Part shown: positions 2,805 through 59,545 of the stretch, one piece after another
Layout of the letters: each line of letters begins with the position of its first letter
Position numbering within the stretch: the first letter of the stretch is position 1
Source of the DNA: Hydrogenovibrio kuenenii DSM 12350
Lineage (GTDB): Bacteria; Pseudomonadota; Gammaproteobacteria; Thiomicrospirales; Thiomicrospiraceae
Length of the DNA stretch: 64,000 bases
NCBI RefSeq assembly: GCF_000526715.1
Contig: NZ_JAGP01000001.1
Coordinates: 2,356,001 to 2,420,000, forward strand
Direction: 5' to 3'
Position numbers and translations under genes: made by a program
The notes under the pieces: model-generated
The model's database searches: none
The model's input: only the letters and a program-made list of their open reading frames with translations
Told to the model about the DNA's origin: nothing

Positions 2805-2823
2805 CCCTGCCTGACAGATTTTA
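2805..2823 (+). repeat. 19-bp dispersed repeat, copy 1 (degenerate)
   Basis: Matches 17 of 19 positions of the unit CCCAGCCTGGCAGATTTTA. It lies between the GNAT and phospholipase genes, 20 bp past the GNAT stop. Confidence 0.6.
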
Positions 2824-2889
2824 CTCACTTTAGCATTGCGACACTTACCACAAGTTAAACCCTGCCTTAACGTAAGGCCCATGCTTTGA

Positions 2890-2918
2890 TTGCGTTATAA
2901 AGCAATTCAATTTATGCT
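2890..2918 (+). promoter_or_regulatory. Possible sigma-70 promoter for the phospholipase gene
   Basis: TTGCGT (2890-2895) and TATGCT (2913-2918) are separated by 17 bp, about 30 bp before the phospholipase start. Judged by eye against the sigma-70 consensus only. Confidence 0.35.
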
Positions 2919-2947
2919 GTCATCAGGTTTCTGTTTAGGATAAAAAA

Positions 2948-3940
2948 ATGCTTAAAACCACTTGGTTAATTGCAACCTTGACACCTCTTATGAGTTTAAG
3001 TGTCTTGGCAGAAACGCCTTTGCCGAAATATGATGCCGAATGCATACAGAAAGCACTTGAAGATCAAGCTCCCAACACGACCTTACAGCAACTGCGTGAC
3101 CAATGTGTTCTCGATCAAGCTGCGTTAGAGCAAGGGAAAACTGCACTTAATGCTCGATTGCTATCTGAAAAAAGTACAAAATACGATCCCTTCACAATCC
3201 AACCCTATCGACCCAATTACTTAATCATTGGTTCCTATAACTTCGCCGGCACCAATGAACACCCTTTTCAACAAGCGACTTTGCCACAAGCAACTCACTT
3301 CGAACCCTATGAAGCCAAATTTCAAATCAGCCTAAAAATTCCCATCGCGGACGATCTGTTTGGCATTGGCGACCACTTGTATATCGGTTATACCAATCGC
3401 TCTTTTTGGCAGGCCTATAGCCACAACATTTCTGCCCCCTTTCGTGAAACCAATCACGAACCCGAAGTGTGGATGAGTTTTGACAATAAAATGGAGATTT
3501 TTGGTTGGCGTAATCGTTTGATCGATGTTGGCTTGAGCCATCAATCGAATGGGCGATCTGATCCTTTGTCTCGATCTTGGAACCGCATCTACACCAGATT
3601 GATGTTTACTAAAGACAACTCGACCTTTTCCATTAAACCTTGGATTCGCGTGCCTGAAGCTGCTTCAAACGACGATAATCCAAATATCTCGCATTATATG
3701 GGCAATATCGAATTTACCTTCACCAGCAAGCTTGAAAAACATCATTTTAAAATCATGGTACGAGACAACTTCAGTGAAACTGACAATAAGGGCGCGTTTG
3801 AGCTGGGCTACAGTTACCCGGTACACCGTAATATGAAAGCTTATATTCAATGGTTCTCAGGTTATGGCGAAAGCTTGATCGATTACAATTATCGCAATAA
3901 TAGCATCGGCATTGGGGTGCAATTTAGTGGCTGGAGTTAG
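2948..3940 (+). CDS. pldA: Outer-membrane phospholipase A (OMPLA)
   Basis: 330-residue secreted beta-barrel of the phospholipase A1 family (PF02253), which hydrolyses mislocalised phospholipids in the outer leaflet. Signal peptide about 1-21 (LMSLSVLA|ET). The active-site segment SHQSNGRSDPLSRSWNRIY gives His198, Ser200 and Asn212; the spacing (His+2=Ser, Ser+12=Asn) is the same as in E. coli PldA (142/144/156). The mature N-terminus carries about 60 extra residues before the barrel. Catalytic residues look intact. It has its own upstream promoter-like sequence and is followed by a 19-bp repeat copy. Confidence 0.93.
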   Translation: MLKTTWLIATLTPLMSLSVLAETPLPKYDAECIQKALEDQAPNTTLQQLRDQCVLDQAALEQGKTALNARLLSEKSTKYDPFTIQPYRPNYLIIGSYNFAGTNEHPFQQATLPQATHFEPYEAKFQISLKIPIADDLFGIGDHLYIGYTNRSFWQAYSHNISAPFRETNHEPEVWMSFDNKMEIFGWRNRLIDVGLSHQSNGRSDPLSRSWNRIYTRLMFTKDNSTFSIKPWIRVPEAASNDDNPNISHYMGNIEFTFTSKLEKHHFKIMVRDNFSETDNKGAFELGYSYPVHRNMKAYIQWFSGYGESLIDYNYRNNSIGIGVQFSGWS

Positions 3941-3974
3941 CGTTACTTGTGAATTAGGTCACTAATCAGACTAA

Positions 3975-3993
3975 CCCAGCCTGGCAGATTTTA
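3975..3993 (+). repeat. 19-bp dispersed repeat, copy 2 (perfect)
   Basis: Exact CCCAGCCTGGCAGATTTTA, between pldA (ends 3940) and the FMN-reductase gene (starts 4083). Confidence 0.85.
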
Positions 3994-4082
3994 CATTGCC
4001 ATCCATCATTTGCATTGCACGCCATTCGGCGTACAATCTTTCATACCACTAATCAGCATTTTGCTTGAAGGAGGGTATTCTG

Positions 4083-4643
4083 ATGGAAGACTTAAAGATT
4101 CTTGGTTTGTGCGGTAGTCTGCGTAAAAAGTCGACTAATATGGGATTGTTGCGTTATGCAAAAGAACACCTCCCAGAAGGTATGACTCTCGAAATTGCCG
4201 ACTTATCCCATGTCCCCTTTTATAACGAAGACATTAAAGACAAACCTCCAGCAGTAGAAATGCTTTTTCAACAAATGTCAGAAGCTGATGGGTTTTTATT
4301 TGCCTGCCCTGAGTACAACTACTCCATTGCACCAGCTTTAAAAAATGCCATAGACTGGGCTTCTAGAGAACCAAACAACCTTTTACTATCAGACAAACCT
4401 GCTGCAATTATGGGATCGGGTGGTGGAATGGGCACCTCCCGTGCGCAATATCATTTGCGCCAAGTTTGCGTGTTCGTCAATCTTCACGTTCTCAATCGCC
4501 CGGAAGTCTTTTGCAATGCATTTGCCGATACCTTCAATGAAAAAAGCGAACTGGTAGACACACGGATTCAACAGTTGATTGAACAACAACTAATGGCCCT
4601 CAAAGCTTTTGCCCAAAAATGGCAAAGGGATTCTTCAAATTAA
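4083..4643 (+). CDS. NADPH-dependent FMN reductase (flavodoxin-like)
   Basis: 186-residue flavodoxin-fold reductase of the ChrR/YieF/SsuE-like family (PF03358). Motifs: FMN-phosphate loop GSLRKKSTNMGLL near the N-terminus, and PEYNYSIAPALKNAIDWAS, the family's flavin-ring segment. It probably reduces quinones or other electrophiles with NAD(P)H and FMN; the physiological substrate is unknown. ATG at 4083 is chosen because AAGGAGGG (4068-4075) lies 7 bases upstream; an in-frame TTG at 4065 would overlap that ribosome site. The MFS gene starts 9 bp downstream, so the two are likely one transcript. Confidence 0.88.
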   Translation: MEDLKILGLCGSLRKKSTNMGLLRYAKEHLPEGMTLEIADLSHVPFYNEDIKDKPPAVEMLFQQMSEADGFLFACPEYNYSIAPALKNAIDWASREPNNLLLSDKPAAIMGSGGGMGTSRAQYHLRQVCVFVNLHVLNRPEVFCNAFADTFNEKSELVDTRIQQLIEQQLMALKAFAQKWQRDSSN

Positions 4644-4652
4644 GGAAAAATA

Positions 4653-6002
4653 GTGAGTACATCTGAAAACTCTCGTGTTAACCAGCTATATAACATGATT
4701 CACGGTGATGAAGATGCTCGCGCCTGTAAAGATATACCTGAGTCGGCGTGCCATGATCAACCCAAAAACTTTTTTGCTTATTTGGTTGCCAATAGTCTCG
4801 GTAAAATAGCCGATGAACTTGCCAGTGCAAAACTGATCTTACCCTGGTTACTGGGTGTACTCGGTGCGCCCGCTATTTTTGCCGGTTTTTTGGTTCCGAT
4901 ACGCGAATCAGGTATCTTACTACCACAATTGATGGTGGCAGCAGCCGTACGTCACCTTCCCGTTCGTAAAGGCGTTTGGTTATTAGGCGCTGCCTTATCG
5001 GCATTGGCATTACTGGGCATGGCAATCACTGCTTATACCGCCAGCGGTGCAACTGCTGGCTGGGCCATCATTATCGCACTCATTGTTTTCAGTTTAGCGA
5101 GAGGCCTTTGCTCGGTATCTGCTAAAGATGTACTTGGCAAAACGATTTCTAAAGGAAAACGCGGCGTATTAATGGGGTATAGCGCCAGTTTCGCCGGGCT
5201 TTTTATCTTAGCTATCGGTGCCATAATCGAAATGCTGAGTGAAAAATCCACCAACTCTTCGCAACTATTACTCTCCATTTTACTTGGCTTGGGTGCGATG
5301 CTTTGGGTGGTTGCTTTTATCAGCTTTAACCGTATTAACGAGCAACCTGGCGCAACGGAAGGCGGCAAAAATGCTTTAACTGCTGCGTTACATAGTTTTT
5401 CTCTACTCAAAACAGATACGCCTTTTCGGCAATATGTCATTGCCCGCACGTTATTCTTAAGTATTGCGCTGGTGCCCCCTTTCTATGTGTTGTTGGCACA
5501 ATCTTACAGTGAAGACGCTTTAAGTGGCTTGGGGATGTTGATTATCGCGGGTGGCATTGCCAGTAGTCTGAGCGCACCGCTCTGGGGAAAAATGTCGGAT
5601 AAATCCAGCCGAAAAGTCATGATCCTCGCTGCTTCCTTAGCTGGCTTACTCGGTGTTTTGTTATTTGCTCTTGTAGAAGAAAAGTCCAGTTTGCTAACGC
5701 ATCCTCTAACTCATGCCGTGTTCTTTATGGCGATTACGTTGTTTCACAGTGGTATTCGTTTAGGGCGAAAAGTCTATTTGGTCGATTTATCTAATGGTGA
5801 AAACCGTGCTATGTATGTCGCTTTGAGTAATACTTTAATCGGGATTTTCATGCTTTTGGCTGGTACTATTGGTTTATTGGCTGACATATGGTCTATTCAA
5901 AGTGTGATTTTGTTACTCAGTCTTATTGCTATCGCTAGCGCTGTTTGGACTTGGCGTTTACCAGAAGTGAGTTTAACCACTACAACAGAACCCTCAAAAT
6001 AA
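4653..6002 (+). CDS. MFS transporter
   Basis: 449-residue polytopic membrane protein with about 12 hydrophobic helices, a charged soluble N-terminal tail of about 45 residues, and the MFS-like loop LWGKMSDKSSRKVMILAA in the middle of the second half. Substrate unknown. It starts with GTG 9 bp after the FMN reductase, behind an AAGGA site. The N-terminal tail contains two Cys (DARACKDIPESACHD), unusual for an MFS. Direct continuation of the reductase operon suggests a linked role, but that is inference. Confidence 0.82.
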   Translation: MSTSENSRVNQLYNMIHGDEDARACKDIPESACHDQPKNFFAYLVANSLGKIADELASAKLILPWLLGVLGAPAIFAGFLVPIRESGILLPQLMVAAAVRHLPVRKGVWLLGAALSALALLGMAITAYTASGATAGWAIIIALIVFSLARGLCSVSAKDVLGKTISKGKRGVLMGYSASFAGLFILAIGAIIEMLSEKSTNSSQLLLSILLGLGAMLWVVAFISFNRINEQPGATEGGKNALTAALHSFSLLKTDTPFRQYVIARTLFLSIALVPPFYVLLAQSYSEDALSGLGMLIIAGGIASSLSAPLWGKMSDKSSRKVMILAASLAGLLGVLLFALVEEKSSLLTHPLTHAVFFMAITLFHSGIRLGRKVYLVDLSNGENRAMYVALSNTLIGIFMLLAGTIGLLADIWSIQSVILLLSLIAIASAVWTWRLPEVSLTTTTEPSK

Positions 6003-6062
6003 TTTAGGTAAAACGTATGCCTTTTAATATTCCCGTTGAAACGAAAACTGCGATGACTGTAA

Positions 6063-6170
6063 GAGACCTTGTACTTTCATCACATAGGCGTTGGGCTAAT
6101 GCAAGGGTATTTCTTTGCCAAACCCGGCTATGAGCCTTTGCCCAGTGTGGATTTCAGTCAATTAAATTAA
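6063..6170 (+). pseudogene. Remnant of an EAL-domain gene (C-terminal tail)
   Basis: In the gap between the MFS and patatin genes, one frame encodes a short piece ending IGVGLMQGYFFAKP-GYEPLP-SVDFSQLN and then TAA (6168-6170). GxxLMQGYFFAKP is the hallmark end of EAL c-di-GMP phosphodiesterase domains. Everything upstream in that domain is missing. In another frame a short opening (ATG at 6017, MPFNIPVETKTAMTVRDL) could be the old 5' end joined by a deletion, but I could not confirm that. I read this as decayed DNA, not a working gene. Confidence 0.6.
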
Positions 6171-6177
6171 AAACAAT

Positions 6178-7071
6178 ATGCCAAACAATTCTCACAAAAA
6201 AACCATATCACTAGTCTTAGGCAGCGGTGGAGCCAGGGGGCTTGCTCATATCGGTATTATTCGATGGCTGGATGAGCACGGCTATCAAATCACTTCCATT
6301 TCCGGGTGTTCTATCGGCGCTCTCATTGGCGGCATTTATGCCATGAATAAACTGGATGATTTCGAGCAATGGGTATGCGCCATTCGGAGAATGGACATTG
6401 TCAAACTACTTGATATTTCCTGGCAAAAGAACGGTTTGGTCAAAGGCGATAAAATCATCAACTCACTAATTGATTTGGTTGGGAATCAGTTGATTGAAGA
6501 ACTTCCCATCAACTTCACTGCTGTCGCGACCGATATTCAAAACCAAAAGGAAGTCTGGTTAACGTCAGGTAAACTCTTTGATGCCATTCGCGCTTCCATT
6601 TCGCTTCCTCTATTTTTCACGCCTGTACACCGCAATGGAATCAATTTGATTGATGGCGGTGTGTTAAACCCTGTGCCCATCGCTCCAACTTTTGGTGATG
6701 CAACAGATATCACTATCGCGGTTAATTTGAATGGCACCATACAAGTCTCGCAAGAAAAACCGCAAGAAAACCTCGTTGAACCCAATCCCTTTTATGAAAA
6801 AATTCGCCATTTCATCGATCAGTTTAGTGGATCAGAAAAAGCATTAGAACAACCAGATTGGGGCATGTATGACATTGCAAACCAAGCTTTTGATGCCATG
6901 CAAACCGCGATTTCTCGTCAAAAATTAGCTGCTTATCCACCAGATTACTTAATTGAGATTGCTGGTAATGCTTGCGGTACGCTGGAATTTGAAAGGGCAA
7001 AAGAAATGATTGCGTTGGGCTATCAAATGGCAGACCAACAATTAACCGAACTAATCACTAACGAATCCTAA
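6178..7071 (+). CDS. Patatin-like phospholipase (RssA-like)
   Basis: 297-residue patatin-family serine lipase. Oxyanion loop GSGGARG (15-21), nucleophile elbow GCSIG with Ser45, and DGG with catalytic Asp159, so the Ser-Asp dyad is complete. No signal peptide, so it is cytoplasmic or peripheral, like the bacterial RssA/YlbK group. The C-terminal 100 residues (helical, with a YPPDYLIEIAGNACGTLEFERA segment) match this group's layout. The ribosome site before the ATG is poor (A-rich only). It follows an EAL remnant, so its promoter may have been changed by that deletion. Confidence 0.88.
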   Translation: MPNNSHKKTISLVLGSGGARGLAHIGIIRWLDEHGYQITSISGCSIGALIGGIYAMNKLDDFEQWVCAIRRMDIVKLLDISWQKNGLVKGDKIINSLIDLVGNQLIEELPINFTAVATDIQNQKEVWLTSGKLFDAIRASISLPLFFTPVHRNGINLIDGGVLNPVPIAPTFGDATDITIAVNLNGTIQVSQEKPQENLVEPNPFYEKIRHFIDQFSGSEKALEQPDWGMYDIANQAFDAMQTAISRQKLAAYPPDYLIEIAGNACGTLEFERAKEMIALGYQMADQQLTELITNES

Positions 7072-7569: not shown

Positions 7570-7591
7570 TTCAAAACACTTCACGCTAATC

Positions 7592-8352: not shown

Positions 8353-8371
8353 CCCAGCCTGGCAGATTTTA
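8353..8371 (+). repeat. 19-bp dispersed repeat, copy 3 (perfect), forms a stop codon
   Basis: Exact CCCAGCCTGGCAGATTTTA between two convergent genes. Its last three bases (TTA, 8369-8371) are the TAA stop of the leftward gene 8369-9718. Confidence 0.85.
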
Positions 8372-9718
8372 TTTTACAGGCACAACCTGCCAAATTTTGT
8401 AACCCTCAGGAGTCGAGGCTTGTAACTTTAAGCAGGGTAAAGGCAATCCGACCGCAGAATTTTCCACATATTTGTTAAAACCAAATTCATGCAAAAACTG
8501 ACAGGTGACTTTATTGTCCAAAGTGGCTTGCTGGATTTTCTTATCGGAAAAACCAATTTCCATCGCTGGCGCTACTTTCACCAATTGTTGAGCACCCTGG
8601 TTCACTACCCAAAAATTAACCCCAAGGTTTTGTGTCATCACATGATCGTGCATTTCAAAGTAGGGCTTTGTTGGTGTTTTGGGTTCGTGGCTGAAGTAAA
8701 AGCCATAATTACCTAACGTGACTTTCACCATAACCAACATAAAGAGAATTAAAAATGGGTGTGGGCGAACTTTCCACTCTCTTGCCAATAAAATCGCCAC
8801 TATTGGAATCAAGTTATCAAGCATATATCTGATTTGCATCGGCAAAGAAAACCAGGCAGCGGTCAATGCCCATTTCTTCTCCGAAGTTCGCCACTTATAA
8901 ACAAACAATACGACTAGGCCGATAAATATCAGCGACAAGGGTAAAGAAAAAGCATTTTCTGAAACCTTAATGCCGGGAATACGCATCGCACCAAAGTTCA
9001 AAATATCCAATACTTCTTTGAAATACTGGCCACCAGTAAACCACTGCCAACCAGCCAAACCGAAAATCAAAGGCAAAATGTAAATACGTCGCCAGATGAT
9101 TAACGGCAATAGATAGATAAAAAACAGATGGTAGAAACTCGCCATCAAACAACCTAGTAATAGGTGTATGACCATATCCCATTTTGGTTTGAGTGGATAA
9201 AAAGTGATGCCGATAGCAATAAACATAAATAGTGTTTCAAAAGTGGTCGGTCTGGCAATTAAAAAACGAGAACCTACTGCCCAAACCAGAATCAAGACCA
9301 CCAATACTCTGGTGTCACGATGAGCCTCTTTTAAATTAAGATAAATGGCTAACGCGAACAAACCAATAGACGCGGCTTGTATCAACTTAATGGCAAACGC
9401 CCCCATGGATTGATACAAATGACCAACCAGCCAGTCAAAGCCAAACCAAGCATCAAAATGATAAGGATAACCATCGAACATTCTGCGGTAATCAAAATCA
9501 TACTGCCAGGCATGGATATGTCGGAGCAAGTCATCTTGCGGCATAGGCGAGAAAAACAGCGTGATGCCGAACAGAAACAACCAGACAAGCACAAAAGATA
9601 AACTACGGTCCTGCCATTGCGGATCTTCAGGCGTATAAATGGGTTTACGGCCATACCAATAGTTTGCCAAGAACAATTGCCAGTCGTTCTGTAGCCGATT
9701 CTTAAAGGTTTCTAACAT
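8369..9718 (-). CDS. Polytopic membrane protein, possible GT-C-type glycosyltransferase
   Basis: 449 residues with a cytosolic N-terminus (about 45) and roughly ten hydrophobic helices, then a soluble C-terminal domain of about 90 residues (from about 360). The first outside loop holds PMPQDDLLRHIHAW, with paired acidic residues after the first helix as in GT-C glycosyltransferases that use lipid-linked sugars. I do not recognise a named family. It lies 23 bp downstream of a polyprenyl-phosphate-type glycosyltransferase gene, so transfer of a lipid-linked sugar is a reasonable inference. Its stop codon is provided by the 19-bp repeat. Confidence 0.7.
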   Translation of the reverse strand: MLETFKNRLQNDWQLFLANYWYGRKPIYTPEDPQWQDRSLSFVLVWLFLFGITLFFSPMPQDDLLRHIHAWQYDFDYRRMFDGYPYHFDAWFGFDWLVGHLYQSMGAFAIKLIQAASIGLFALAIYLNLKEAHRDTRVLVVLILVWAVGSRFLIARPTTFETLFMFIAIGITFYPLKPKWDMVIHLLLGCLMASFYHLFFIYLLPLIIWRRIYILPLIFGLAGWQWFTGGQYFKEVLDILNFGAMRIPGIKVSENAFSLPLSLIFIGLVVLFVYKWRTSEKKWALTAAWFSLPMQIRYMLDNLIPIVAILLAREWKVRPHPFLILFMLVMVKVTLGNYGFYFSHEPKTPTKPYFEMHDHVMTQNLGVNFWVVNQGAQQLVKVAPAMEIGFSDKKIQQATLDNKVTCQFLHEFGFNKYVENSAVGLPLPCLKLQASTPEGYKIWQVVPVK

Positions 9719-9741
9719 TAAGCGATTCCTGAAATTCGACG

Positions 9742-10737
9742 TTAAATACGCTGACTGCTACGGAAAATGAAGCGTTTGATTTCTCGACTGTGACTGTTGA
9801 TGTTTTCGGAAATCAATCCAATGGCAAAGGTTAACAGCGTCAATACAAAGCCACCCATGCTAACAATCAACGTTGGGAAGTGTCTTACCTTGTCTGTCAT
9901 GATAAATTCGGTCAACGGAATCGAAAATGCGACCAATGACATAATCAACAGCAGCAAACTGGCATAACCATAGAATTGAAGCGGTTTCTTCAACTGATAC
10001 AACCAAACCAACTTAAACAAGATGCGGCTGCCGTCTTGAATGGTACGGAGTTTGGAGTGAGAATCTTCCGGTCTTTCGCGATATGCCACTGGCATTTCGG
10101 CAAAACCAACACCCAAATCAAAGGCATGCACGGTTAATTCTGTTTCCACTTCAAAGCCAGACGCTACCGATGGAAAGCTTTTCACAAAGCGCGCGGTCAT
10201 TACTCGCATACCCGAAAACGGATCTTCAACTTCCATATCAAACAAAGTAGAAATTGCCTTAGAAAATAATCGATTCCCTAAATAATGTCCCGCTCTGGTA
10301 TGACTGCTTTTGTCTTTCAAACGGTCTCCGACCACCATTTCCAAATGGTCATGCTGTAATCGTTTAATCATCTCTGGCAGATATGAGGTTTCATAAGTGT
10401 CATCACCATCAATGATGATGAAAATATCAGCATCAATTTCACCAAATGCTTTTTTCAAAGCTCGCCCTTTTCCAGGTCGCTTTTCACAACGCACAATCGC
10501 ACCAGCCGCTGTCGCCACAGCGCAGGTATCATCCGTAGAGCCATTGTCATACACATAAATACCACAGTTGGGCAAAACTTCGCGAACAGATTCAATAACC
10601 TTAGTGATTGTTTGAGATTCGTTGAGACAAGGAATCACCACTGCGATTCTTGGTGAAGTAGTAGACTGACCTTCTTCAGAAAACTCAAGAGAATTTTCGA
10701 CCAACCTGAGAGAAGGATTAAGCGCAAACATAGACAA
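9742..10737 (-). CDS. Glycosyltransferase family 2 with two C-terminal membrane helices (GtrB/DPM1-like)
   Basis: 331-residue GT2 enzyme. GT-A motifs: VVIPCLNESQT at about 32-42, YDNGSTDDT, GKGRALKKAF, and the metal-binding IDGDDTY. Two hydrophobic helices (about 255-280 and 290-312) near the C-terminus are typical of GtrB/ArnC-type enzymes that put a sugar on polyprenyl phosphate at the membrane. The next gene downstream, 23 bp away, is a polytopic protein that could use that product. Sugar identity is unknown. Confidence 0.88.
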   Translation of the reverse strand: MSMFALNPSLRLVENSLEFSEEGQSTTSPRIAVVIPCLNESQTITKVIESVREVLPNCGIYVYDNGSTDDTCAVATAAGAIVRCEKRPGKGRALKKAFGEIDADIFIIIDGDDTYETSYLPEMIKRLQHDHLEMVVGDRLKDKSSHTRAGHYLGNRLFSKAISTLFDMEVEDPFSGMRVMTARFVKSFPSVASGFEVETELTVHAFDLGVGFAEMPVAYRERPEDSHSKLRTIQDGSRILFKLVWLYQLKKPLQFYGYASLLLLIMSLVAFSIPLTEFIMTDKVRHFPTLIVSMGGFVLTLLTFAIGLISENINSHSREIKRFIFRSSQRI

Positions 10738-10859: not shown

Positions 10860-10878
10860 CCCAGCCTGGCAGATTTTA
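10860..10878 (+). repeat. 19-bp dispersed repeat, copy 4 (perfect), forms a stop codon
   Basis: Exact unit; its terminal TTA (10876-10878) is the TAA stop of the histidine-kinase gene read leftward. It sits at the left end of that gene, in the gap before the glycosyltransferase start. Confidence 0.85.
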
Positions 10879-13726: not shown

Positions 13727-13745
13727 CCCAGCCTGGCAGATTTTT
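13727..13745 (+). repeat. 19-bp dispersed repeat, copy 5
   Basis: 18 of 19 positions match (final A is T). It lies in the divergent gap between the P460 and SulP genes, so here it is in a promoter region and not at a gene end. Confidence 0.8.
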
Positions 13746-17978: not shown

Positions 17979-17997
17979 CCCAGCCTGGCAGATTTTA
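17979..17997 (+). repeat. 19-bp dispersed repeat, copy 6 (perfect)
   Basis: Exact unit, 30 bp before the start of the RMD1-like gene and 71 bp after the permease stop. Confidence 0.85.
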
Positions 17998-32150: not shown

Positions 32151-32169
32151 TAAAATCTGCCAGGCTGGG
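32151..32169 (-). repeat. 19-bp dispersed repeat, copy 7 (perfect, reverse)
   Basis: Exact unit on the minus strand, between the dsbA terminator and the acetolactate-synthase-like gene. Confidence 0.85.
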
Positions 32170-36749: not shown

Positions 36750-36768
36750 AAAAATCTGCCAGGCTGGA
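36750..36768 (-). repeat. 19-bp dispersed repeat, copy 8 (reverse)
   Basis: 17 of 19 positions match on the minus strand (both end bases differ). It lies 7 bp after the MlaA stop. Confidence 0.75.
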
Positions 36769-39774: not shown

Positions 39775-41541
39775 TTAATTTTGTGGTGATTCCAAACCCT
39801 TGGTTTGTAATCTTGCAATCCTTTTAGATAGAGTGTGTAAACGTTTCAGTGCATCGACAATTTGCATTTCTATTCTAAAAATAATCAGTCTGGATTCATC
39901 TGATCTCATATGTTTCACTTGATGTTTTAATGTCATTTGTATCATTTCATCAATGGCTGCTTTTGCTGAAAACACTTCCAAAGCTTTTTCTTTTTGCTGC
40001 TCATCAAGAGCAATTAAAGCATTATTTAGAGATTTAACCACTTCTTTGGTGATATTACCCATTAAATCCTGCATGGTAGGGCTAACCTTGAGTTGGAATT
40101 CAAACGTTTGATGGCGGGCATCTAACAGTCCATTTTCAATGGTTTCCATTACCGATTCTAATATGTTCGATATGGTAATCAATTCAACATATTTTTGTTG
40201 TTGGGTTTCATCAAGATTAGATTGAGAGATTTTGCTTAAATACAGCAATATTAAATGTTGATATTGTCGAAGCTGTCGAAGTGATTTTTCTTCAAATTTA
40301 AGAGCATTTAATTGAACAGGATAGTTATTGTTTATGAAATGTTGGAATAGATTATTCAGTTTTTCACGAAAAACATTCAGTTCCATTACAACTGCACCAA
40401 AAGCTAATTCAGGGGTTTTTAGAAAGTTGTCATCCAAAAATTTAGGATCGAATGATTGTTGTTTTTCTTCATCCAAAACGGGTACGAAACGGTAAGCTAG
40501 CCAAACAAATAAACCCAGTAAAGGTAAAAATAGAATCAGAGCAGAAAGTTTGAAAATTGTATTGGCATTGGCAATCTCACGAGGTGTATTTTCTGCCAGG
40601 CTGGCCATAGAATTTAAGTCAGTTCCTGTCATTGGAGAAATATAAACAGCTAAAGCTGCTAACACACTAATAAACGGTAACCAAAGTAGCACGCCAAATA
40701 CATTGAACAGCACATGAATCAAAGCTGCTCTAATCGCTTCTCGAGATTGTCCGATGGTAGCGAGAACCGCTGTAATACAAGTACCTATGTCAGCGCCCAT
40801 CGATAGAGCAATACCGTTGGGTAAGGTCAAAAATCCTTGGCTTGCCATGACAATCACAATACCAATAGTTGCTGAAGAAGACTGTACTAAGGCAGTAAAC
40901 CCCAGGCCAATCAAAATGCCGTAAAGTGGATGGTTAAGTTCTCTGATTGTTTGTAAAAAAGGCTCATAGGTTTTGAGTGGAGACATACCTTCACCCATTA
41001 AATTCATGCCGATGAAAAGTAACCCAAGACCTAAAAGCAATTGGCCGAAATTTTTTCTAACACGTGTTTCGCTCATAAATTGAATTAGAAAACCGACAAA
41101 GACCATTATGAGTGCTAGGTTGTAGATTTTGAAAGCAACGATTTGGGCAGTGATTGTTGTCCCTAAGTTTGCTCCCATTATGATGCTACCCGCCTGCATA
41201 AGCGTCATCATGCCTGAAGCAACAAAACCGATGACTAAAACACTAGTGACGGAAGAAGATTGGATAATAGCAGTTACGAAAGTACCAGATAGGGCGCCCA
41301 TCACTCGGTTGGTGGTTAAGGTAGCTAGCAGTTGTTTCATGCGGCCACCGGCAATTGCCAACAAGCCTTTAACCATCAAATCCAAACCAAAGAGAAAGAG
41401 TGCTAGACCGCCTAATAATTGCAACAGCATTTCATACCAATTCAGGGTAGAAATCATTTCTCTTGGTAGAACAGCCAGTGCAGTACCTGACCAAAAAAGT
41501 AGCAGTAGGAGAGTTTTGACAGGTTTTATTTTGATTTGCAT
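39775..41541 (-). CDS. Na+/phosphate cotransporter family protein (NptA/YjbB-like)
   Basis: 588 residues. Two inverted Na/Pi repeats with the QSSS motifs TAIIQSSSVTSVLVIGFVASG and TALVQSSSATIGIVIVMASQG, eight or more helices (about 30-345), then a cytosolic PhoU-like helical domain (about 360-590). It moves phosphate with sodium, often as exporter in bacteria. ATG 41541 is preferred to the upstream TTG 41559. A 19-bp repeat relative lies inside it (40587-40605), coding SLAEN. No pst or phoB genes are near. Confidence 0.88.
   Translation of the reverse strand: MQIKIKPVKTLLLLLFWSGTALAVLPREMISTLNWYEMLLQLLGGLALFLFGLDLMVKGLLAIAGGRMKQLLATLTTNRVMGALSGTFVTAIIQSSSVTSVLVIGFVASGMMTLMQAGSIIMGANLGTTITAQIVAFKIYNLALIMVFVGFLIQFMSETRVRKNFGQLLLGLGLLFIGMNLMGEGMSPLKTYEPFLQTIRELNHPLYGILIGLGFTALVQSSSATIGIVIVMASQGFLTLPNGIALSMGADIGTCITAVLATIGQSREAIRAALIHVLFNVFGVLLWLPFISVLAALAVYISPMTGTDLNSMASLAENTPREIANANTIFKLSALILFLPLLGLFVWLAYRFVPVLDEEKQQSFDPKFLDDNFLKTPELAFGAVVMELNVFREKLNNLFQHFINNNYPVQLNALKFEEKSLRQLRQYQHLILLYLSKISQSNLDETQQQKYVELITISNILESVMETIENGLLDARHQTFEFQLKVSPTMQDLMGNITKEVVKSLNNALIALDEQQKEKALEVFSAKAAIDEMIQMTLKHQVKHMRSDESRLIIFRIEMQIVDALKRLHTLSKRIARLQTKGLESPQN
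40587..40605 (-). repeat. 19-bp dispersed repeat, copy 9 (intragenic, degenerate)
   Basis: 15 of 19 positions match on the minus strand, including an unbroken CCAGCCTGGCAG. Inside the Na/Pi gene it reads A-S-L-A-E. Confidence 0.55.
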
Positions 41542-49431: not shown

Positions 49432-49866
49432 TTAAAGCTTGAGCGCCTTTACTTTGATTTGGTAAGCTTTATGGCAAGCAACACAGTTTTTTTGTAATGC
49501 CGCCAAACGGTTTAGGATGACCTCTTTATCACCCAGACTTGAAGCTTCATCAGCAATGCTTTCAAAGCCACGATGTGTTTCTGGACCTAATTTCATCATA
49601 CCAGGTGGTAGTTGTTTTTTAAGCGATAGAGGAGTGTTCTTAATCATTTTGATACCTACTTCTCGCGCTGATTTTTCCACTTGGTCCATATTATCTGCCA
49701 GGCTGGCCTCTAGTATTTGTTGGCTGGCAGACATGAAATCACGCATTTCTTGTAAGAACATGGCTTTTTGTTCTGCAGATAGCCACACAATGGTTCGGTT
49801 ATCTGCATAGCTATTGGCTGAAAATATCAGCCCCATTAACATCAATAAAAGATTTCTTTTCATCAC
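49432..49866 (-). CDS. Small c-type cytochrome (class II, cytochrome c'/c-556-like)
   Basis: 144 residues: signal peptide (1-21, ANSYA|DNRT), a four-helix-type body and a single C-terminal haem site CVACH in LQKNCVACHKAYQIK, as in class II cytochromes c. It is periplasmic; role unknown, possibly gas binding or electron transfer. It would be matured by the ResB/CcsA system in this window. A 19-bp repeat relative lies inside it (49689-49707), coding SLADN. It lies 29 bp downstream of the TetR gene on the same strand. Confidence 0.82.
   Translation of the reverse strand: MMKRNLLLMLMGLIFSANSYADNRTIVWLSAEQKAMFLQEMRDFMSASQQILEASLADNMDQVEKSAREVGIKMIKNTPLSLKKQLPPGMMKLGPETHRGFESIADEASSLGDKEVILNRLAALQKNCVACHKAYQIKVKALKL
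49689..49707 (-). repeat. 19-bp dispersed repeat, copy 10 (intragenic)
   Basis: 16 of 19 positions match on the minus strand; reads A-S-L-A-D in the cytochrome gene. Confidence 0.6.
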
Positions 49867-50657: not shown

Positions 50658-52748
50658 ATGCAGAACTCCGAAGTTTCGACGAATCCTCTTTTGGATATAA
50701 ATGGTTTACCGAGATTTGATGCGTTTCATGTGGAACACATTAAACCCGCTGTCGAAACTCTGATCAAAGAAAACCTAGAAAAGATCGAGTATTTGATTGA
50801 GGAATCAATCGCGCCGACTTGGGAAAATTTTGTTCAGCCGCTAGAAGTACTGAGTAACCGTTTGGAAAGAGTTTGGGGGCCGGTCAGTCATTTAGATGCA
50901 GTGAAAAATAATGATGCTTGGCACGAAGCTTATAATGAGTGTCTTGCACCGATTACGGATTACTATGCACAGATGGGTCAAAACAAAGGTTTGTTTAAAA
51001 AGTTTGAAGCCATAGTTAATTCAGCGGAATATCACAGCTATACACTTGCTCAGAAAAAGGTTGTGGAAAATGCATTACGGGATTTTCGTTTATCCGGTAT
51101 CGATCTGCCAAGTGAAAAGCAGGATGAATACAAATCTATCTCGCAGAAATTATCGCAATTGAGCAGTCAGTTTAGTAACAATGTTTTAAAAAGTAGCCAA
51201 GCTTGGTCAAAGCATATTACAGATGAAGCTGAGTTGTCTGGACTGCCAGAAACTGCAATGGGTTTATTGAAGCAACTCGCTGAACAGCGTAGCGAAAAGG
51301 ATGGAAAGTCTTATCCGGGTTGGATGGTGACGTTAGATTTTCCATCTTATCTGGCAGTGATGACACATGCAGATAATCGCTCTCTAAGAGAAGAGGTGTA
51401 TAAAGCATTTTCTACTAGAGCATCTGAATTGGCAGATAATCCAGCCTATGATAATTCCGACTTGATTAGACAAATCTTAGATTTACGCCATCAAAAAGCC
51501 CAATTACTTGGTTTTGATCATTATGCAGATTTATCGCTTGCAACCAAAATGGCAGAGTCAATCGAGCAAGTAACAAGCTTTATTCGCGATTTGGCAACAC
51601 AATCCAAACAACAAGCCGAGCTTGAGCTCAATAAACTAAAAGACTTTGCCAAAACCCTTGACCCCAGCCTGGTAGATTTTCAACCTTGGGATGTTAGCTA
51701 TTGTTCTGAGAAATATAAGAATGAAACCCTGTCTTTATCACAGGAAGTACTTCGTCCTTTTTTTCCGGTGGAAAAAGTATTGGGCGGTCTATTTAAAATT
51801 ACCGAGACTTTGTTTGGGGTAAAAGTCCAGCAGCGTGAAGATGTAAAAACCTGGCATAAAGATGTGCGTTTTTATGATGTCATGGGTAATCAGAATGAAG
51901 TTGTGGCGTCTTTTTATCTCGACTTATATGCCCGAGAAAATAAGCGTGGTGGCGCATGGATGGATTCGGCAATCAGTCGTTGGAAATTGCCATCTGGAGA
52001 AATTCAAACGCCTGTAGCTTATTTAGTGTGTAACTTCACGCCGCCAGTCGGCGATAAACCAGCGTGTTTAACGCATGACGAGGTAACAACCTTATTCCAT
52101 GAGTTTGGTCATGGTTTACATCACATGTTGACGGAAATGAGCCACTTTGATGTTTCTGGCATTAATGGTGTGCCCTGGGATGCAGTAGAGTTGCCATCAC
52201 AATTTATGGAAAACTTTTGCTGGCATAGAGAAAGCTTAGATTTAATGACTTCTCATATTGAAACAGGCGATTGTCTGCCGGAAGAGTTATTGCAAGCATT
52301 GCAAAAAAGTAGAGGTTTTCAGTCGGCAATGATGATGTTACGTCAATTGGAATTCAGTCTGTTTGATTTTGTTGCACACGCTGAATATGATCCGAATGAA
52401 CCCAAAGAAATTCTGCAGCTTGCACAAGAAGTACGTGATGAAGTAGCTGTGATTCAACCACCTGAATACAGTCGTTTTGCACAAAGTTTTAGTCATATAT
52501 TCTCAGGTGGCTATGCTGCAGGCTATTTCAGTTATAAGTGGGCAGAAGTACTGTCTTCAGATGCGTTTGGGTTATTTGAAGAAGAAGGCATCCTTAACCC
52601 AGATATTGGCGCTAAGTTTAAAAACACGATTTTAGCTGCTGGCGGTTCTGTTCATCCGATGACATTGTTTAAAAGTTTCCGAGGGCGCGAACCACGGGTT
52701 GAAGCTTTATTAAGGCATTCTGGCATTAAGGTGGAAGATGCTGCTTAA
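50658..52748 (+). CDS. prlC: Oligopeptidase A (M3 family)
   Basis: 696 residues, near the usual 680. Zinc site in LFHEFGHGLHHML (HExxH plus the downstream Glu in NFCWHRESL) and the N-terminal segment FDAFHVEHIKPAVETLI are typical of PrlC/OpdA, which degrades signal peptides and other small peptides in the cytoplasm. A relative of the 19-bp repeat lies inside (51663-51681, PSLVDF), and a near-parS site lies at 50723-50736. It is divergent from the TetR gene. Confidence 0.94.
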   Translation: MQNSEVSTNPLLDINGLPRFDAFHVEHIKPAVETLIKENLEKIEYLIEESIAPTWENFVQPLEVLSNRLERVWGPVSHLDAVKNNDAWHEAYNECLAPITDYYAQMGQNKGLFKKFEAIVNSAEYHSYTLAQKKVVENALRDFRLSGIDLPSEKQDEYKSISQKLSQLSSQFSNNVLKSSQAWSKHITDEAELSGLPETAMGLLKQLAEQRSEKDGKSYPGWMVTLDFPSYLAVMTHADNRSLREEVYKAFSTRASELADNPAYDNSDLIRQILDLRHQKAQLLGFDHYADLSLATKMAESIEQVTSFIRDLATQSKQQAELELNKLKDFAKTLDPSLVDFQPWDVSYCSEKYKNETLSLSQEVLRPFFPVEKVLGGLFKITETLFGVKVQQREDVKTWHKDVRFYDVMGNQNEVVASFYLDLYARENKRGGAWMDSAISRWKLPSGEIQTPVAYLVCNFTPPVGDKPACLTHDEVTTLFHEFGHGLHHMLTEMSHFDVSGINGVPWDAVELPSQFMENFCWHRESLDLMTSHIETGDCLPEELLQALQKSRGFQSAMMMLRQLEFSLFDFVAHAEYDPNEPKEILQLAQEVRDEVAVIQPPEYSRFAQSFSHIFSGGYAAGYFSYKWAEVLSSDAFGLFEEEGILNPDIGAKFKNTILAAGGSVHPMTLFKSFRGREPRVEALLRHSGIKVEDAA
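50723..50736 (+). other. parS-like site, one mismatch (GTTTCATGTGGAAC)
   Basis: Differs from the 14-mer by one base. It lies in prlC over the conserved peptide FHVEH, so protein conservation could explain it. Confidence 0.3.
51663..51681 (+). repeat. 19-bp dispersed repeat, copy 11 (intragenic)
   Basis: 17 of 19 positions match on the plus strand; reads P-S-L-V-D-F in prlC, the same phase as the other two coding copies. Confidence 0.65.
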
Positions 52749-55222: not shown

Positions 55223-55243
55223 TCAAGTCCAATGAGCGAGCAT

Positions 55244-55269: not shown

Positions 55270-55351
55270 GTAACTTTTGGTAAAAGTCGATTAAACTAGG
55301 TGCTTAAAGTAAATGTGTTTTTATAACATGCAAATTCATCAATATTAGGCT

Positions 55352-56659
55352 TTGAAGTTTGTGACCAAGACTTTCTTTTTTCAAAAACGTTTTTTTCCTT
55401 TGTTTTGCGTTCAGTTCTTGGGTGCATTTAATGACAATGTCTTTAAAAATGCTTTGGTGATGCTCATCACCTTTCAATTAGCGAAAACACCGAATGAAGC
55501 GGGGCTTCTCATTACCTTAGCAGCGGGAATTTTCATTTTGCCGTTTTTTCTATTATCCGCGTTTGCCGGACAACTGGCTGACAGTCATGATAAAACGATG
55601 TTAATCCGAAAGATTAAGTTAGCGGAAGTATTAATTATGCTGACGGCAGCAGTCGCTTTTTGGATGCAGGATATTCAACTATTACTTGTCGTTTTGTTTT
55701 TTATGGGCGCACAATCCGCATTTTTCGGTCCGATTAAATATGGGGTTTTGCCTGAGTATTTATCTGAAACTGAACTTTTGAAAGGCAATGGTTGGTTTAG
55801 TGGGTCTACTTTTATTGCGATTTTGCTAGGCACGCTTTTAGGTGGCTGGATGGTACTGAGCCAAGACGGTATCAAATGGGTGTCTCTCACCGTTATAGTG
55901 ATTGCGCTAGCGGGTTATCTTATGAGTTTGAAAGTTCCTTCTTCTGACCTGAAAATTGAGCCTGTTACTTTAGAGTGGAATCTTTTGGGTGCAATTCGTC
56001 ATGAAGTTGCTCATGCCCGCCAATTTCCACAAGCATTTTTTGCGGTATTGGCAATCTCTTGGTTCTGGTTTTTAGGTGCAACTTATTTAAGCCAAATGCC
56101 AGTGTTGGTTAAGGAAACGTTAGGTGCAAACGACTCAGTGGTATTGATGTTCTTATCACTCTTTTCCATTGGTATTGGTTTAGGCGCATGGGTGGTGAAT
56201 CAATTTAAGCTGGATATAGCCAATATTCGTCAACTTCGTTGGCTAGTGCTGCCTTTATTGGGTATCTCTTTGGTAATGTTGCTGTCCAATGCCTTAATGC
56301 AACATTCCGGTACGGACACCAGTGAGCACGGACTGATAACGCTGTCGCATTTTCTAAGTAGTCCATTTCACGATATTGTGCTTGTTTTAATGGGGTTGAT
56401 TGCCGTATTAGGCGGCATCTATATTGTCCCGCTTTATACGCTTCTGCAAGTGCAAACACCGGATGGTAAGCGTTCACGCATGGTGGCAGCCAACAACATC
56501 CTTAATGCCGTATTTATGGTGGCGTCATCGCTATGGATTATGATGCTTTATGCGCTGGATTGGTCTTTATTGACCATTTTGACAAGCATTGCGGTATTGA
56601 ATTTAGTTGCAGCGATTTGGTTTATGTTGCGTGCTAAAAGATTAAGTATCGAAGAATAA
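55352..56659 (+). CDS. lplT: MFS transporter, lysophospholipid transporter LplT-like
   Basis: 435 residues, about 12 helices. FFPLFCVQFLGAFNDNVFKNAL near the N-terminus is the LplT signature (LGAFNDN); LplT flips lysophospholipids to the cytoplasmic side for reacylation by Aas, encoded next door. Longer than E. coli LplT (397). The start is uncertain: TTG 55352 or GTG 55361, neither with an ideal ribosome site. Gap of 58 bp to the aas gene. Confidence 0.87.
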   Translation: MKFVTKTFFFQKRFFPLFCVQFLGAFNDNVFKNALVMLITFQLAKTPNEAGLLITLAAGIFILPFFLLSAFAGQLADSHDKTMLIRKIKLAEVLIMLTAAVAFWMQDIQLLLVVLFFMGAQSAFFGPIKYGVLPEYLSETELLKGNGWFSGSTFIAILLGTLLGGWMVLSQDGIKWVSLTVIVIALAGYLMSLKVPSSDLKIEPVTLEWNLLGAIRHEVAHARQFPQAFFAVLAISWFWFLGATYLSQMPVLVKETLGANDSVVLMFLSLFSIGIGLGAWVVNQFKLDIANIRQLRWLVLPLLGISLVMLLSNALMQHSGTDTSEHGLITLSHFLSSPFHDIVLVLMGLIAVLGGIYIVPLYTLLQVQTPDGKRSRMVAANNILNAVFMVASSLWIMMLYALDWSLLTILTSIAVLNLVAAIWFMLRAKRLSIEE

Positions 56660-56717
56660 TAAAAACATGGGCAGCATAAGCCGCTCGGTGTAAACAGAAA
56701 ATAGGAAAAATAAAAAC

Positions 56718-58868
56718 ATGAAACGATTGGTGAAATTACTGCTTTTGGTATTTTTTCGCGTCAAGGTAAAAGGATTGGAAAATTATCATACGCTCGATAA
56801 GAGTGGTGAGCCCATGCTGATTATCGCCAATCACACCTCTTTGCTTGATGGCTTGTTGATTGCCAGTTTTTTACCGGGTAAGACAGCGTTTATGATTGCC
56901 GAAGAGCACACCAAGCAGTGGTATGAACGCTTCTTATTGAGTTTTGTTGATCACTTCAAAGTAGAGTTCCATAATCCTTACGCCACCAAACGTGTTATTC
57001 AAGAGCTGAAAAACGGCACCCATTGTATGATTTTCCCCGAAGGGCGTATTACGACCACGGGTAGCTTGATGAAGGTCTATGAAGGTACGGCGATGGTCGC
57101 TACCAAAGCCAATGCAATGATTCTGCCGATCCATATTTCAGGTGCAGAAAAAAGTAAATTGTCTTATCTAGATGGATCACATTATGCCTATACCAAGCGC
57201 CGATGGTTTCCAAAGATTCAGTTATCGATCCAACCCGCCGTAAAATTAAATCTGCCTAAAGGGTACAAAGGTACACGCAAGCATGAATACTTTAAAGACC
57301 GTATTTTTAATATTTTGAAGGATGCCGGTTTCCACGGACAGTTTGAACCGCAATCGCTCTTTAAAGCCTTAGTTAAGGCAAGAAAGTCTTATGATGCTTC
57401 TGAAGTTTGTTTAGAAGATTTTAATCACAATACGCTGACACTGAAGAAATTGTTGGCGGCCAGTAAGGTGCTCGGTAAGAAGTTGCACCAAGAGCTTGGT
57501 GAACAGAAACGAGTGGGGGTGTTGTTACCGAATGTTGTAGGGTTACCAACCACTTTCTTTGCACTACAAGCCTATGGTTATGTACCCGCAATGCTGAATT
57601 TTACGTCAGGACTTGGGCCGATAAAATCTGCCTGTGAAACAGCAGAATTACAGACGGTAATTACTTCTCGCAAGTTTGTTGAAGTTTTTCAGCTGGATGC
57701 GGTAATCGAAAATCTGTCTGCACAAACCGACTTTATCTATTTAGAGGATATCCGTGCACAAATCGGTTTGCTTGATAAATTAAGCTTGCTTTGGACTTGT
57801 AGTAAAAAACTGCCTGGCTACGGTTTAGATGAAGAAGAGGAAGCGGTTGTACTCTTTACTTCCGGCTCCGAAGGTGCGCCAAAAGGTGTGGTTTTATCGC
57901 ATAAGAATATCAATAGTAATATTGATCAAATCTCTGCGGTACTTACATTACTACCAGGAGAGAAAATCTTTAATGCTTTGCCGACTTTCCATAGTTTTGG
58001 CTTAACTGCGGGTACGCTTTGGCCAGTGCTTAAAGGGGCAAGTGTTTACATGTATCCATCGCCGTTACACTATGCGGTGATTCCGGAAATGATCTATCAG
58101 CTGAATGCCAAGTTCTTATTTGCAACGGATACCTTCTTTACAGGCTATGCGAAAAAGGCCGATCCTTATGACTTCTACAGTATTCGTGCTTTGGTTGCTG
58201 GCGCCGAGAGATTGCGCCCTGAAACGCGTCAACTGTACGCTGAAAAATTCCATACCCCCATTTTTGAAGGTTATGGCGTAACTGAAACGGCGCCGGTGCT
58301 TGCGGTGAATATCCCGCAAAAATTCAAACATGGCACTGTGGGTCAGTTGGTACCAGGCATTGAGTATCATTTGGAACCTGTCGAGGGGATTGAGGCAGGT
58401 GGACGCCTGTTGGTTAAAGGGCCGAACATTATGAAAGGCTATTTACTATCAGATCAGCCAGGTGTGTTGATTCCACCCAAAGATGGTTGGCATGACACCG
58501 GCGATATTGTCGATATTGATGAAGAAGGTTATATGTCGATTAAAGGGCGAGCCAAACGTTTTGCGAAAATTGGCGGAGAGATGATTTCTTTGGCGGCGGT
58601 GGAAAACTATATCAACAAAGCCAGTCCAGAAGGCCATCATGTTGTGGCAGCAGTGGCTGACCCAAGAAAAGGGGAACAACTCGTTCTTGTGACCAATGAC
58701 GAATCTTTAAGTCGCCACACGGTCAAAGAGGCGGCTAGAGCAGCAGAAGTGTCTGAAATTATGATTCCGAAAACGGTGATCTTGGTGGAGGAAATGCCTG
58801 TGTTGGGTACGGGTAAAACCAACTATCCTGAAGTGCAAAAAATAGCAGATGGGCATAGTGCCAATTAA
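56718..58868 (+). CDS. aas: Bifunctional acyl-ACP synthetase / lysophospholipid acyltransferase
   Basis: 716 residues, essentially the length of E. coli Aas (719). N-terminal PlsC-like acyltransferase (about 1-200) with the HX4D site in NHTSLLDG and FPEGRITTTGSLMKV; C-terminal AMP-binding enzyme (about 220-710) with LFTSGSEGAPKGVVLSHKN, FEGYGVTETAPV and GDIVDIDEEGYM. It reacylates lysophospholipids imported by LplT. Short A/G-rich leader, AGGA before ATG. Confidence 0.93.
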   Translation: MKRLVKLLLLVFFRVKVKGLENYHTLDKSGEPMLIIANHTSLLDGLLIASFLPGKTAFMIAEEHTKQWYERFLLSFVDHFKVEFHNPYATKRVIQELKNGTHCMIFPEGRITTTGSLMKVYEGTAMVATKANAMILPIHISGAEKSKLSYLDGSHYAYTKRRWFPKIQLSIQPAVKLNLPKGYKGTRKHEYFKDRIFNILKDAGFHGQFEPQSLFKALVKARKSYDASEVCLEDFNHNTLTLKKLLAASKVLGKKLHQELGEQKRVGVLLPNVVGLPTTFFALQAYGYVPAMLNFTSGLGPIKSACETAELQTVITSRKFVEVFQLDAVIENLSAQTDFIYLEDIRAQIGLLDKLSLLWTCSKKLPGYGLDEEEEAVVLFTSGSEGAPKGVVLSHKNINSNIDQISAVLTLLPGEKIFNALPTFHSFGLTAGTLWPVLKGASVYMYPSPLHYAVIPEMIYQLNAKFLFATDTFFTGYAKKADPYDFYSIRALVAGAERLRPETRQLYAEKFHTPIFEGYGVTETAPVLAVNIPQKFKHGTVGQLVPGIEYHLEPVEGIEAGGRLLVKGPNIMKGYLLSDQPGVLIPPKDGWHDTGDIVDIDEEGYMSIKGRAKRFAKIGGEMISLAAVENYINKASPEGHHVVAAVADPRKGEQLVLVTNDESLSRHTVKEAARAAEVSEIMIPKTVILVEEMPVLGTGKTNYPEVQKIADGHSAN

Positions 58869-58896
58869 ATAAACTCTATGGAAGGAGACTAGGAAG

Positions 58897-59481
58897 ATGA
58901 TGCGACAATATATAACGGCAAAGAATATTTTTGCTTTGCTTTTTATTATTTTGATTGTGACCAAGTTACATGCTTTTACGGCGATTACGCTCGATAGTAA
59001 ATTTGCTGAGCATTTCATCGTCATTAACTGGCCGTTGGTGGTGACGGTATTTGTGATTGCTGCCAGTGCCATTTTCGTGCGCCGTGGCTCCAATGACTGC
59101 TGGTTTATAGCGTTGAATTTTATTGCCTTAATCCTCCTTTCGATTGTGTTGGAATGGTATCAACCTGGGTTGGGTATCGGCATTTTCATCATGATGATTT
59201 CTACCGCGGTGGCTGAAGAGTTAATCGTGCGTTATGCGTTATTTGAAGTGCTTTGGCCGCGTTTTAAACCAGCTATGATCGTGTTGATTAGTGCGCTATT
59301 GTTTATGGGCATTCACACCAATATTTATACGGAGTTTGAATCTTCCTTGATGGTATTCTTTTTCGGCTTGGTTTTGGGTTCGATATATGCCAAATTTAAA
59401 CAAAAAGATCAAACCATAAAAGGCTTAGCATTGGTTGCTTGGCTGCATCTTGGGGCTTTGTTGCTTACTATCTATTTATAG
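58897..59481 (+). CDS. CPBP family intramembrane metalloprotease-like protein
   Basis: 194 residues, about six helices. Motif 1 EELIVRY (EExxxR) near residue 108, motif 2 FMGIHTN and motif 3 WLHLGAL place the usual Glu and two His residues of CPBP (Abi/CAAX-processing) glutamic proteases. Function unknown. GGAGA ribosome site. It follows aas by 28 bp, so it may be the last gene of the lipid operon. Confidence 0.82.
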   Translation: MMRQYITAKNIFALLFIILIVTKLHAFTAITLDSKFAEHFIVINWPLVVTVFVIAASAIFVRRGSNDCWFIALNFIALILLSIVLEWYQPGLGIGIFIMMISTAVAEELIVRYALFEVLWPRFKPAMIVLISALLFMGIHTNIYTEFESSLMVFFFGLVLGSIYAKFKQKDQTIKGLALVAWLHLGALLLTIYL

Positions 59482-59492
59482 TTTTGTATTGC

Positions 59493-59511
59493 TAAAATCT
59501 GCCAGGCTGGG
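59493..59511 (-). repeat. 19-bp dispersed repeat, copy 12 (perfect, reverse; left arm of hairpin)
   Basis: Exact unit on the minus strand, 11 bp after the CPBP gene's stop. It pairs with the copy at 59527. Confidence 0.85.
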
Positions 59512-59526
59512 GTCAGGGATAGATAA

Positions 59527-59545
59527 CCCAGCCTGGTATATTTTT
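59527..59545 (+). repeat. 19-bp dispersed repeat, copy 13 (degenerate; right arm of hairpin)
   Basis: 16 of 19 positions match. The stop codon of BatD (59544-59546) overlaps its end. Confidence 0.65.

Follow-up and report, generated by a model that had tools for sequence, protein, structure and literature searches.

Dialects of a dispersed 18-bp repeat in Hydrogenovibrio kuenenii and related bacteria: a putative DNA uptake signal

The DNA uptake sequence (DUS) of Neisseriaceae is a GCCGTCTGAA-type sequence with a CTG core. Its dialects follow phylogeny and share a common core (PMC3630211), and it is mostly intergenic, strongly conserved in the core genome and found in inverted pairs that serve as terminators (PMC2397512). 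For the uptake signal sequence (USS) of Pasteurellaceae, a 2025 paper gives ComN/PpdA as the predicted receptor and states that Neisseriaceae and Pasteurellaceae are the only families from which uptake sequences are known (PMC12616744). Here we describe a dispersed repeat of Hydrogenovibrio kuenenii DSM 12350 (genome G000), first seen in a stretch of 64,000 nucleotides (C1:2356001-2420000, hereafter the window) of its 2,449,025-bp chromosome. Judging from the DNA, this 18-bp unit is probably the uptake signal of a sequence-selective natural-transformation system with an evolutionary origin of its own in this family of Gammaproteobacteria. Our main argument comes from the comparison of G000 with two near species, G007 and G012, in which the same sites carry a unit changed at one base.

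A sequence-only reading of the window had proposed a family of 19-bp repeats with 13 copies, six of them perfect. The six perfect copies stand where they had been placed, at 3975, 8353, 10860 and 17979 on the plus strand and at 32151 and 59493 on the minus strand. Our search of the window at ≤3 mismatches returned 12 matches (the others at 2805, 13727, 36750, 49689, 51663 and 59527), against a mean of 0.00 in 100 dinucleotide shuffles; the claimed thirteenth copy was not among them, and it may have been a bare core at 40592 or a decayed copy at 8381. Genome-wide, 350 copies occur at ≤2 mismatches (194 plus, 156 minus) and a reversed-pattern control gives 0, which confirms the excess of the family: copies are neither few outside the window nor at chance level. 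The exact 17-mer CCAGCCTGGYAGATTTT occurs 280 times (157 plus, 123 minus). The conserved unit is about 18 bp long, CCCAGCCTGGYAGATTTT, running from the first C through the last of four T, with CCAGCCTGG as its core, and it is nearly palindromic around a single C without being a perfect palindrome. Alignment of 68 copies, picked by the core CAGCCTGG from a 464-kb sample of the genome (the window and 20 stretches of 20 kb; 90% open reading frame, ORF), gave the consensus CCCAGCCTGG[C74/T25]AGATTTT. The flanks carry almost no information except for a weak preference for A or C immediately before the unit, and base 19 (A) of the 19-mer originally proposed is not conserved. In a broad collection of genome contigs, from which this or very near genomes were possibly left out, the exact pattern gave 19 single matches, as chance would.

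The copies were expected from the sequence-only reading to be mostly intergenic and sometimes in inverted pairs, and they are both. Although 5.5% of window positions lie outside ORFs, 10 of the 11 window copies at ≤2 mismatches do (p 2.5e-12), as do 35 of 52 copies in the 464-kb sample (mechanically called ORFs) and 28 of 37 in G007. The 141 exact copies in the first 1.301 Mb, for which both strands were listed, are spread uniformly (Kolmogorov-Smirnov p 0.87). Neighbouring copies less than 100 bp apart make up 16 pairs, against 1.5 expected, and all 16 are inverted, so that about a quarter of the copies are in inverted pairs and 109 lie outside close pairs. Seven pairs have their T-runs outward, like terminators, and nine are arranged tail to tail. 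Pairs were seen between convergent genes at 59494/59527 in the window and at 1705/1737 in L172. The window pair (left arm 59494..59511, minus strand; right arm 59527..59544, plus strand, ending in a T-run) is kept in G007 and G012, and its RNA would fold into a hairpin at 59491-59548 with -28.3 kcal/mol. Such a hairpin followed by a T-run, the seven pairs of that layout and the A- and T-runs that flank many palindromic copies in a congener (G014, see below) might suggest a small mobile repeat, of the repetitive extragenic palindrome (REP) or miniature inverted-repeat transposable element (MITE) kind, or a simple terminator family. But no flanking repeat extends the conserved unit beyond 18 bp, most copies are unpaired, the tail-to-tail pairs have no T-run after the stem, one copy lies in frame within a gene, and positions are kept between species while base 5 changes jointly; we therefore regard this explanation as very improbable.

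The motif proved to be one of a set of dialects. We take the GTDB family of H. kuenenii to be Thiomicrospiraceae and its life style to be sulfur-oxidising. NCBI places Hydrogenovibrio in Piscirickettsiaceae, Gammaproteobacteria. Our family set comprised 62 genomes, namely genus g1 (G000 and ten congeners) and 51 genomes of other genera. Exact CCAGCCTGGYAGATTTT is present as one copy in four of the ten congeners and absent from the other six (G013 being mostly N in its sampled part), and it is absent from all 51 genomes of the other genera. The exact motif is thus nearly confined to the G000 genome, and the family is a set of dialects rather than a single 19-mer. Dialects in the relatives were detected by k-mer enrichment in sampled stretches, with G013 set aside because its sample is mostly N, and nine of the ten congeners carry other dialects. 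That of G007 and G012, CCCAACCTGGYAGATTTT, is one base off the G000 unit; its exact 15-mer CCAACCTGGYAGATT occurs 290 times in G007, 341 times in G012 and 4 times in G000. The remaining seven congeners carry the perfect palindrome CCAGGCCTGG, with 367 sites in G005, 599 in G006, 461 in G008, 677 in G009, 404 in G010, 367 in G011 and 673 in G014, and none in G000. At least 100 such palindromes are present in 27 of the 62 genomes (g1 7/11, g5 10/32, g6 9/9, g7 1/1, g2-g4 0/9), and a further five g5 genomes have 15-44 each. G026, a g5 genome without CCAGGCCTGG, has 1,025 sites of ACCGGCCGGT, a palindrome of the same shape (control 1). Overall, 31 of the 62 genomes have at least 100 copies of one of the four dialects. 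In five congeners 46-62% of the palindromes are inside ORFs, still less than expected from a coding fraction near 90%.

The palindromic dialect is related to the G000 unit in its inner part and its tail. G014 sites oriented by their T tails (n=69) read CCAGGCCTGG-Y-S-G-TTTT, followed by another T-rich position 7-9 bp on; the tail is partly by construction in this alignment, but the unoriented profile shows it too, and many G014 copies are bordered by A- and T-runs. The right half CCTGG-Y-N-G-W-TTT is common to the G000 motif and the G014 dialect. For orientation, one 943-aa protein of G000 is 87% identical to its counterparts in G007 and G012 and 78% to that in G014. By this rough measure of relatedness, the related dialects, with their common inner core, follow phylogeny.

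The Neisseriaceae DUS is alike in being an abundant short repeat, mostly intergenic, with inverted pairs and with clade dialects that differ by few bases around an inner core. Sequence and bacterial class are unrelated, however, and here there are two perfectly palindromic dialects, an AT tail and no ComP_DUS match over cut-off. A test for the DUS sequence itself failed: the core here is CCAGCCTGG, and the CTG that it contains is uninformative. The Pasteurellaceae USS resembles our motif in its core followed by AT-rich stretches (compare the T-run and the T-rich position 7-9 bp on in G014), in belonging to Gammaproteobacteria and in having dialects, whereas its core, AAGTGCGGT or ACAAGCGGT, is unrelated (PMC12616744). 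Its inner core GCGG is not in the G000 unit. A search for 'uptake sequence' with Thiomicrospira or Hydrogenovibrio, which left most subscription papers and all preprints outside, found nothing, and among the literature matches listed for CCAGGCCTGG none was by title about a bacterial genome.

Position is conserved between G000 and its near species, a property that the sequence-only reading had proposed to check between strains. We compared 98 kb of G000 (the window, the comEC region and the pilin region) with the syntenic DNA of G007 and G012, in which the mapped flanks are about 68-87% identical, and the window and pilin region with G005, G009 and G014. A same-strand counterpart lies within 25 bp of the mapped position for 9 of the 13 window copies in G007 (two of them corresponding to one G007 copy) and for 9 of 13 in G012, whereas random noncoding positions with random strand gave 9/250 and 13/250, respectively. 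Of 19 G000 copies examined over the three blocks, 13 could be paired with a G007 site and 14 with a G012 site; copy 3975 was left out of the G007 count because it shares its G007 copy with 2805. Copies without a counterpart are 8353, 8381, 10860, 49690 and one in the pilin block, and 3975 for G007 only. Base 5 differs in 12 of the 13 pairs with G007 and in 13 of the 14 with G012. Base 11, which is C or T within these dialects, differs in 6 and 5 pairs, and the other 16 bases differ in 7/208 and 4/224 cells, respectively. The pattern used to find pairs accepted A/G at base 5, C/T at base 11 and up to three mismatches elsewhere; the low divergence at those other bases is therefore partly by construction, but the base-5 switch is not. 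This is a concerted genome-wide switch of base 5 at kept sites. For one base to change in almost every copy of a motif whose places are kept, some process has to rewrite the copies where they stand; transformation with a sequence-biased receptor would do so by itself. The A at base 5 may be the derived state, as is hinted by the palindrome, which has G before CCTGG like the G000 dialect. In the alignments with G005, G009 and G014, the positions of copy 32152 and of the pilin-region pair are taken by the palindrome, whereas the pilin-region copy at L172 7493 maps in the palindrome genomes with no palindrome at its place.

In the strongest alternative, the unit is a site bound by a chromosomal protein whose specificity changed between clades, be it a nucleoid protein, a regulator or the methyltransferase linked to a HIP1-like palindrome. 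Two dialects are perfect palindromes and the G000 unit nearly so, as for a dimeric DNA-binding protein, and the half-sites CCAGG/CCTGG resemble the CCWGG methylation site. HIP1 of cyanobacteria is an abundant, clade-wide palindrome linked to methyltransferases, and as a highly repeated palindrome is like the CCAGGCCTGG dialect; it is, however, described as the same 8-mer in all instances (PMC4390886), while we find dialects and tails. CCWGG as such is an unlikely explanation, as it is not enriched outside the motif: its frequency there is 0.75 of expectation in G000, 0.63 in G007 and 0.95 in G014, counted without the tandem arrays at L050 and L070. With the motif masked, the inner octamer CAGGCCTG of G014 is still 3.2-fold more frequent than expected, which decayed copies would explain. 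Site rewriting is needed to account for the one-sided TTTT tail and for the switch of one base at nearly all sites, and a protein binding inside the cell has none built in. Moreover, only one of the nine intergenic window positions (the inverted pair taken as one) is between divergent genes, which is untypical of a promoter site. We consider this alternative unlikely, though less so than the others.

Genes that could serve uptake are present in part. ComEC was found in 56 of the 62 genomes, G000 included. G000 has an MSHA-type pilus locus with MshL over cut-off, an ATPase with MshE-type domains and a GspF-like protein. Searching G000 with the PilQ model returned two secretins below the cut-off of that model, the MshL just named and one in a locus that looks by eye like a Tad pilus (L054 33-8989, with a secretin and TadZ/TadA/TadB/TadC-like ORFs). 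In G006 (599 palindromes, one contig), the same search gave a single secretin, a 581-aa ORF in the length class of the G000 MshL, which would be the candidate there if DNA crosses the outer membrane via a secretin, although the model may miss others. Beside miaB lies a conserved cluster of four pilin-like genes, two of which match an NCBIfam prepilin model over cut-off. These minor pilins were considered as the receptor and none was nominated, as none stands out by identity or charge. At the search threshold, prepilin-type matches number three each in G000, G007 and G012 (one of them below cut-off in G007 and in G012) and seven to nine in the palindrome congeners G005, G006, G009 and G014. A cluster resembling type II secretion pseudopilins was not seen in G000, G007 and G012.

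Several observations weigh against an uptake signal. ComEC occurs in genomes with and without the motif and so does not separate motif-rich from motif-poor genomes. ComP_DUS (PF16732) passed its curated cut-off in none of the 62 genomes, with one weak sub-threshold match in G051; PilQ (TIGR02515) likewise passed in none, a weak negative given that the model passed in only 1 of 14 control genomes. The soluble parts of the four miaB-side pilin-like proteins of G000 have pI 4.2-6.3 and are not basic, and among those of the relatives only one is basic (G007, pI 8.2). We found no report of competence in Hydrogenovibrio in a search that left most subscription papers and all preprints outside, and among the literature matches listed for Thiomicrospira, Thiomicrorhabdus and Hydrogenovibrio none was by title on their competence. 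At the DNA level, 31 of the 62 genomes fall short of 100 copies for every one of the four dialects, among them the five with 15-44 palindromes, and no dispersed substitute was found in 40-53 kb sampled from each of the motif-poor G024, G030 and G042 (the 6.8-kb sample of G016 was too little for this search). Copy numbers are 280-1,025 (280-350 in G000) versus thousands in Neisseriaceae. With a loose control (80 bp, either strand), random positions found a G007 copy in 48 of 200 cases, far above the strict control. A palindrome lies within 80 bp in G014 for 2 of 3 mapped window copies against 24 of 100 random noncoding positions, and three mapped copies are too few to exclude chance for shared palindrome positions.

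Strand is a further such point. The copies are modestly skewed, with 64 plus and 77 minus in the first 1.301 Mb and 93 plus and 46 minus in the rest (Fisher p 3e-4), as a chromosome-segregation or recombination signal (KOPS-, Chi- or matS-like) might be. KOPS and Chi, however, are strongly oriented with replication, and the bias in G000 is weak; the palindromic dialects are not orientable by their core, the spread over the first 1.301 Mb is uniform, unlike that of matS, and the copies favour noncoding DNA. A signal of this kind is, in our view, very improbable. Both it and the small mobile repeat had been offered as alternatives in the sequence-only reading, and both fit worse than its uptake-sequence proposal, which the DNA supports through hundreds of copies, intergenic bias, inverted pairs, near-species positions and dialects. 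The failure to single out a receptor leaves some room for something else with the same evolutionary signature, to which we give the smallest chance of all, as the DNA-level features match the uptake-sequence class.

If the unit is an uptake signal, a surface pilus protein would bind DNA bearing the cell's own dialect, the pilus would pull the bound DNA in, ComEC would pass one strand inward, and homologous recombination would replace the chromosomal copy. Copies matching the receptor would be over-represented in incoming DNA, and good copies would thereby spread and be kept at fixed sites (molecular drive); a shift in receptor preference would be followed by the sites, giving rise to dialects. 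Inverted pairs with outward T-runs may double as transcription terminators. A more specific history, which we put forward tentatively and at somewhat less than even chances, is that of a third, independently evolved uptake-sequence system in a free-living family, without recognisable ComP/PilQ and probably acting via an MSHA-type pilus. Its ancestral signal would have been palindromic and read by a symmetric receptor; in one Hydrogenovibrio clade it would have become asymmetric, after which a one-base difference would have divided it in two as transformation-driven molecular drive rewrote the sites in place.

In coordinates of the 18-bp unit, the window holds 13 copies, including the decayed one at 8381; besides the inverted pair, they are as follows. 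The degenerate copy CCCTGCCTGACAGATTTT at 2805..2822 (plus, 2 mismatches) begins 21 bp past an ORF end at 2784 and has perfect counterparts in G007 and G012. Copy 3975..3992 (plus, perfect, intergenic) has its counterpart in G012; nothing in the G007 region matches the preceding ORF, and the right flank maps to the G007 copy shared with 2805. A perfect copy at 8353..8370 (plus) overlaps the stop codon of ORF 8369-9718(-) and adjoins the decayed copy at 8381..8398 (plus, 3 mismatches), and another perfect copy at 10860..10877 (plus) lies on the opposite side of the two ORFs at 8369-10737; a tblastn comparison of these ORFs with the regions of the relatives left no match that reached 60 bits. 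The perfect copies at 13727..13744 (plus, between divergent genes, A dialect in G007 and G012) and 17979..17996 (plus, intergenic) have the same place and strand in both near species. The place of the perfect intergenic copy 32152..32169 (minus) is also kept in G007 and G012, and in the alignments with G005, G009 and G014 it is taken by CCAGGCCTGG. Copy 36751..36768 (minus, 1 mismatch, intergenic) is at the same place in G007 and G012 by its right flank, and a palindrome stands 19-36 bp off its mapped place in G005, G009 and G014. The weak and doubtful copy at 49690..49707 (minus, 3 mismatches) is within ORF 49432-49866 and has no same-strand counterpart in G007 or G012. The intragenic copy at 51663..51680 (plus) lies in frame within ORF 50658-52748; G000, G007 and G012 all have it in this gene at offset 1005, where it reads PSLVDF in G000 and PNLADF in G007 and G012, whereas G005, G009 and G014 lack one where it maps.

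Other repeats were seen in passing. The window contains five copies of GTTTCAYRTGAAAC at ≤1 mismatch (2482, 22358, 46538, 60007 and, with 1 mismatch, 50723), where shuffles give 0.07. We take this sequence to be close to the ParB parS consensus, and the copies suggest that the window is near the chromosome origin. At the assembly start, L050 1-8494 (G000 C1:1-8494) holds a 318-bp unit repeated 26.7 times in tandem with 99% matches, which probably belongs to a very large, repetitive surface protein, and L070 of G007 has k-mers repeated 18-34 times; the repeat k-mers of L050 and L070 were set aside as single loci. G054 has repeated GTTCCCACGC and CTCGTTCCCA k-mers in L145/L146 that resemble a CRISPR array, and G024 has a short tandem-like TGTCTTG repeat in L138/L139, with k-mers present 22-23 times.

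Whether uptake sequences are tags selected for self-recognition or a side effect of a biased receptor and molecular drive is a classic puzzle. If our reading is true, a third origin would be a natural experiment on this question, in which one could measure how fast, in which direction and at what cost a genome-wide tag is rewritten. The receptor could be sought by co-variation, since near relatives differ by one base at the same sites. The host bacteria are environmental and culturable. Natural competence would be predicted in Hydrogenovibrio and its relatives, and this would be useful for the genetics of carbon-fixing sulfur oxidisers.

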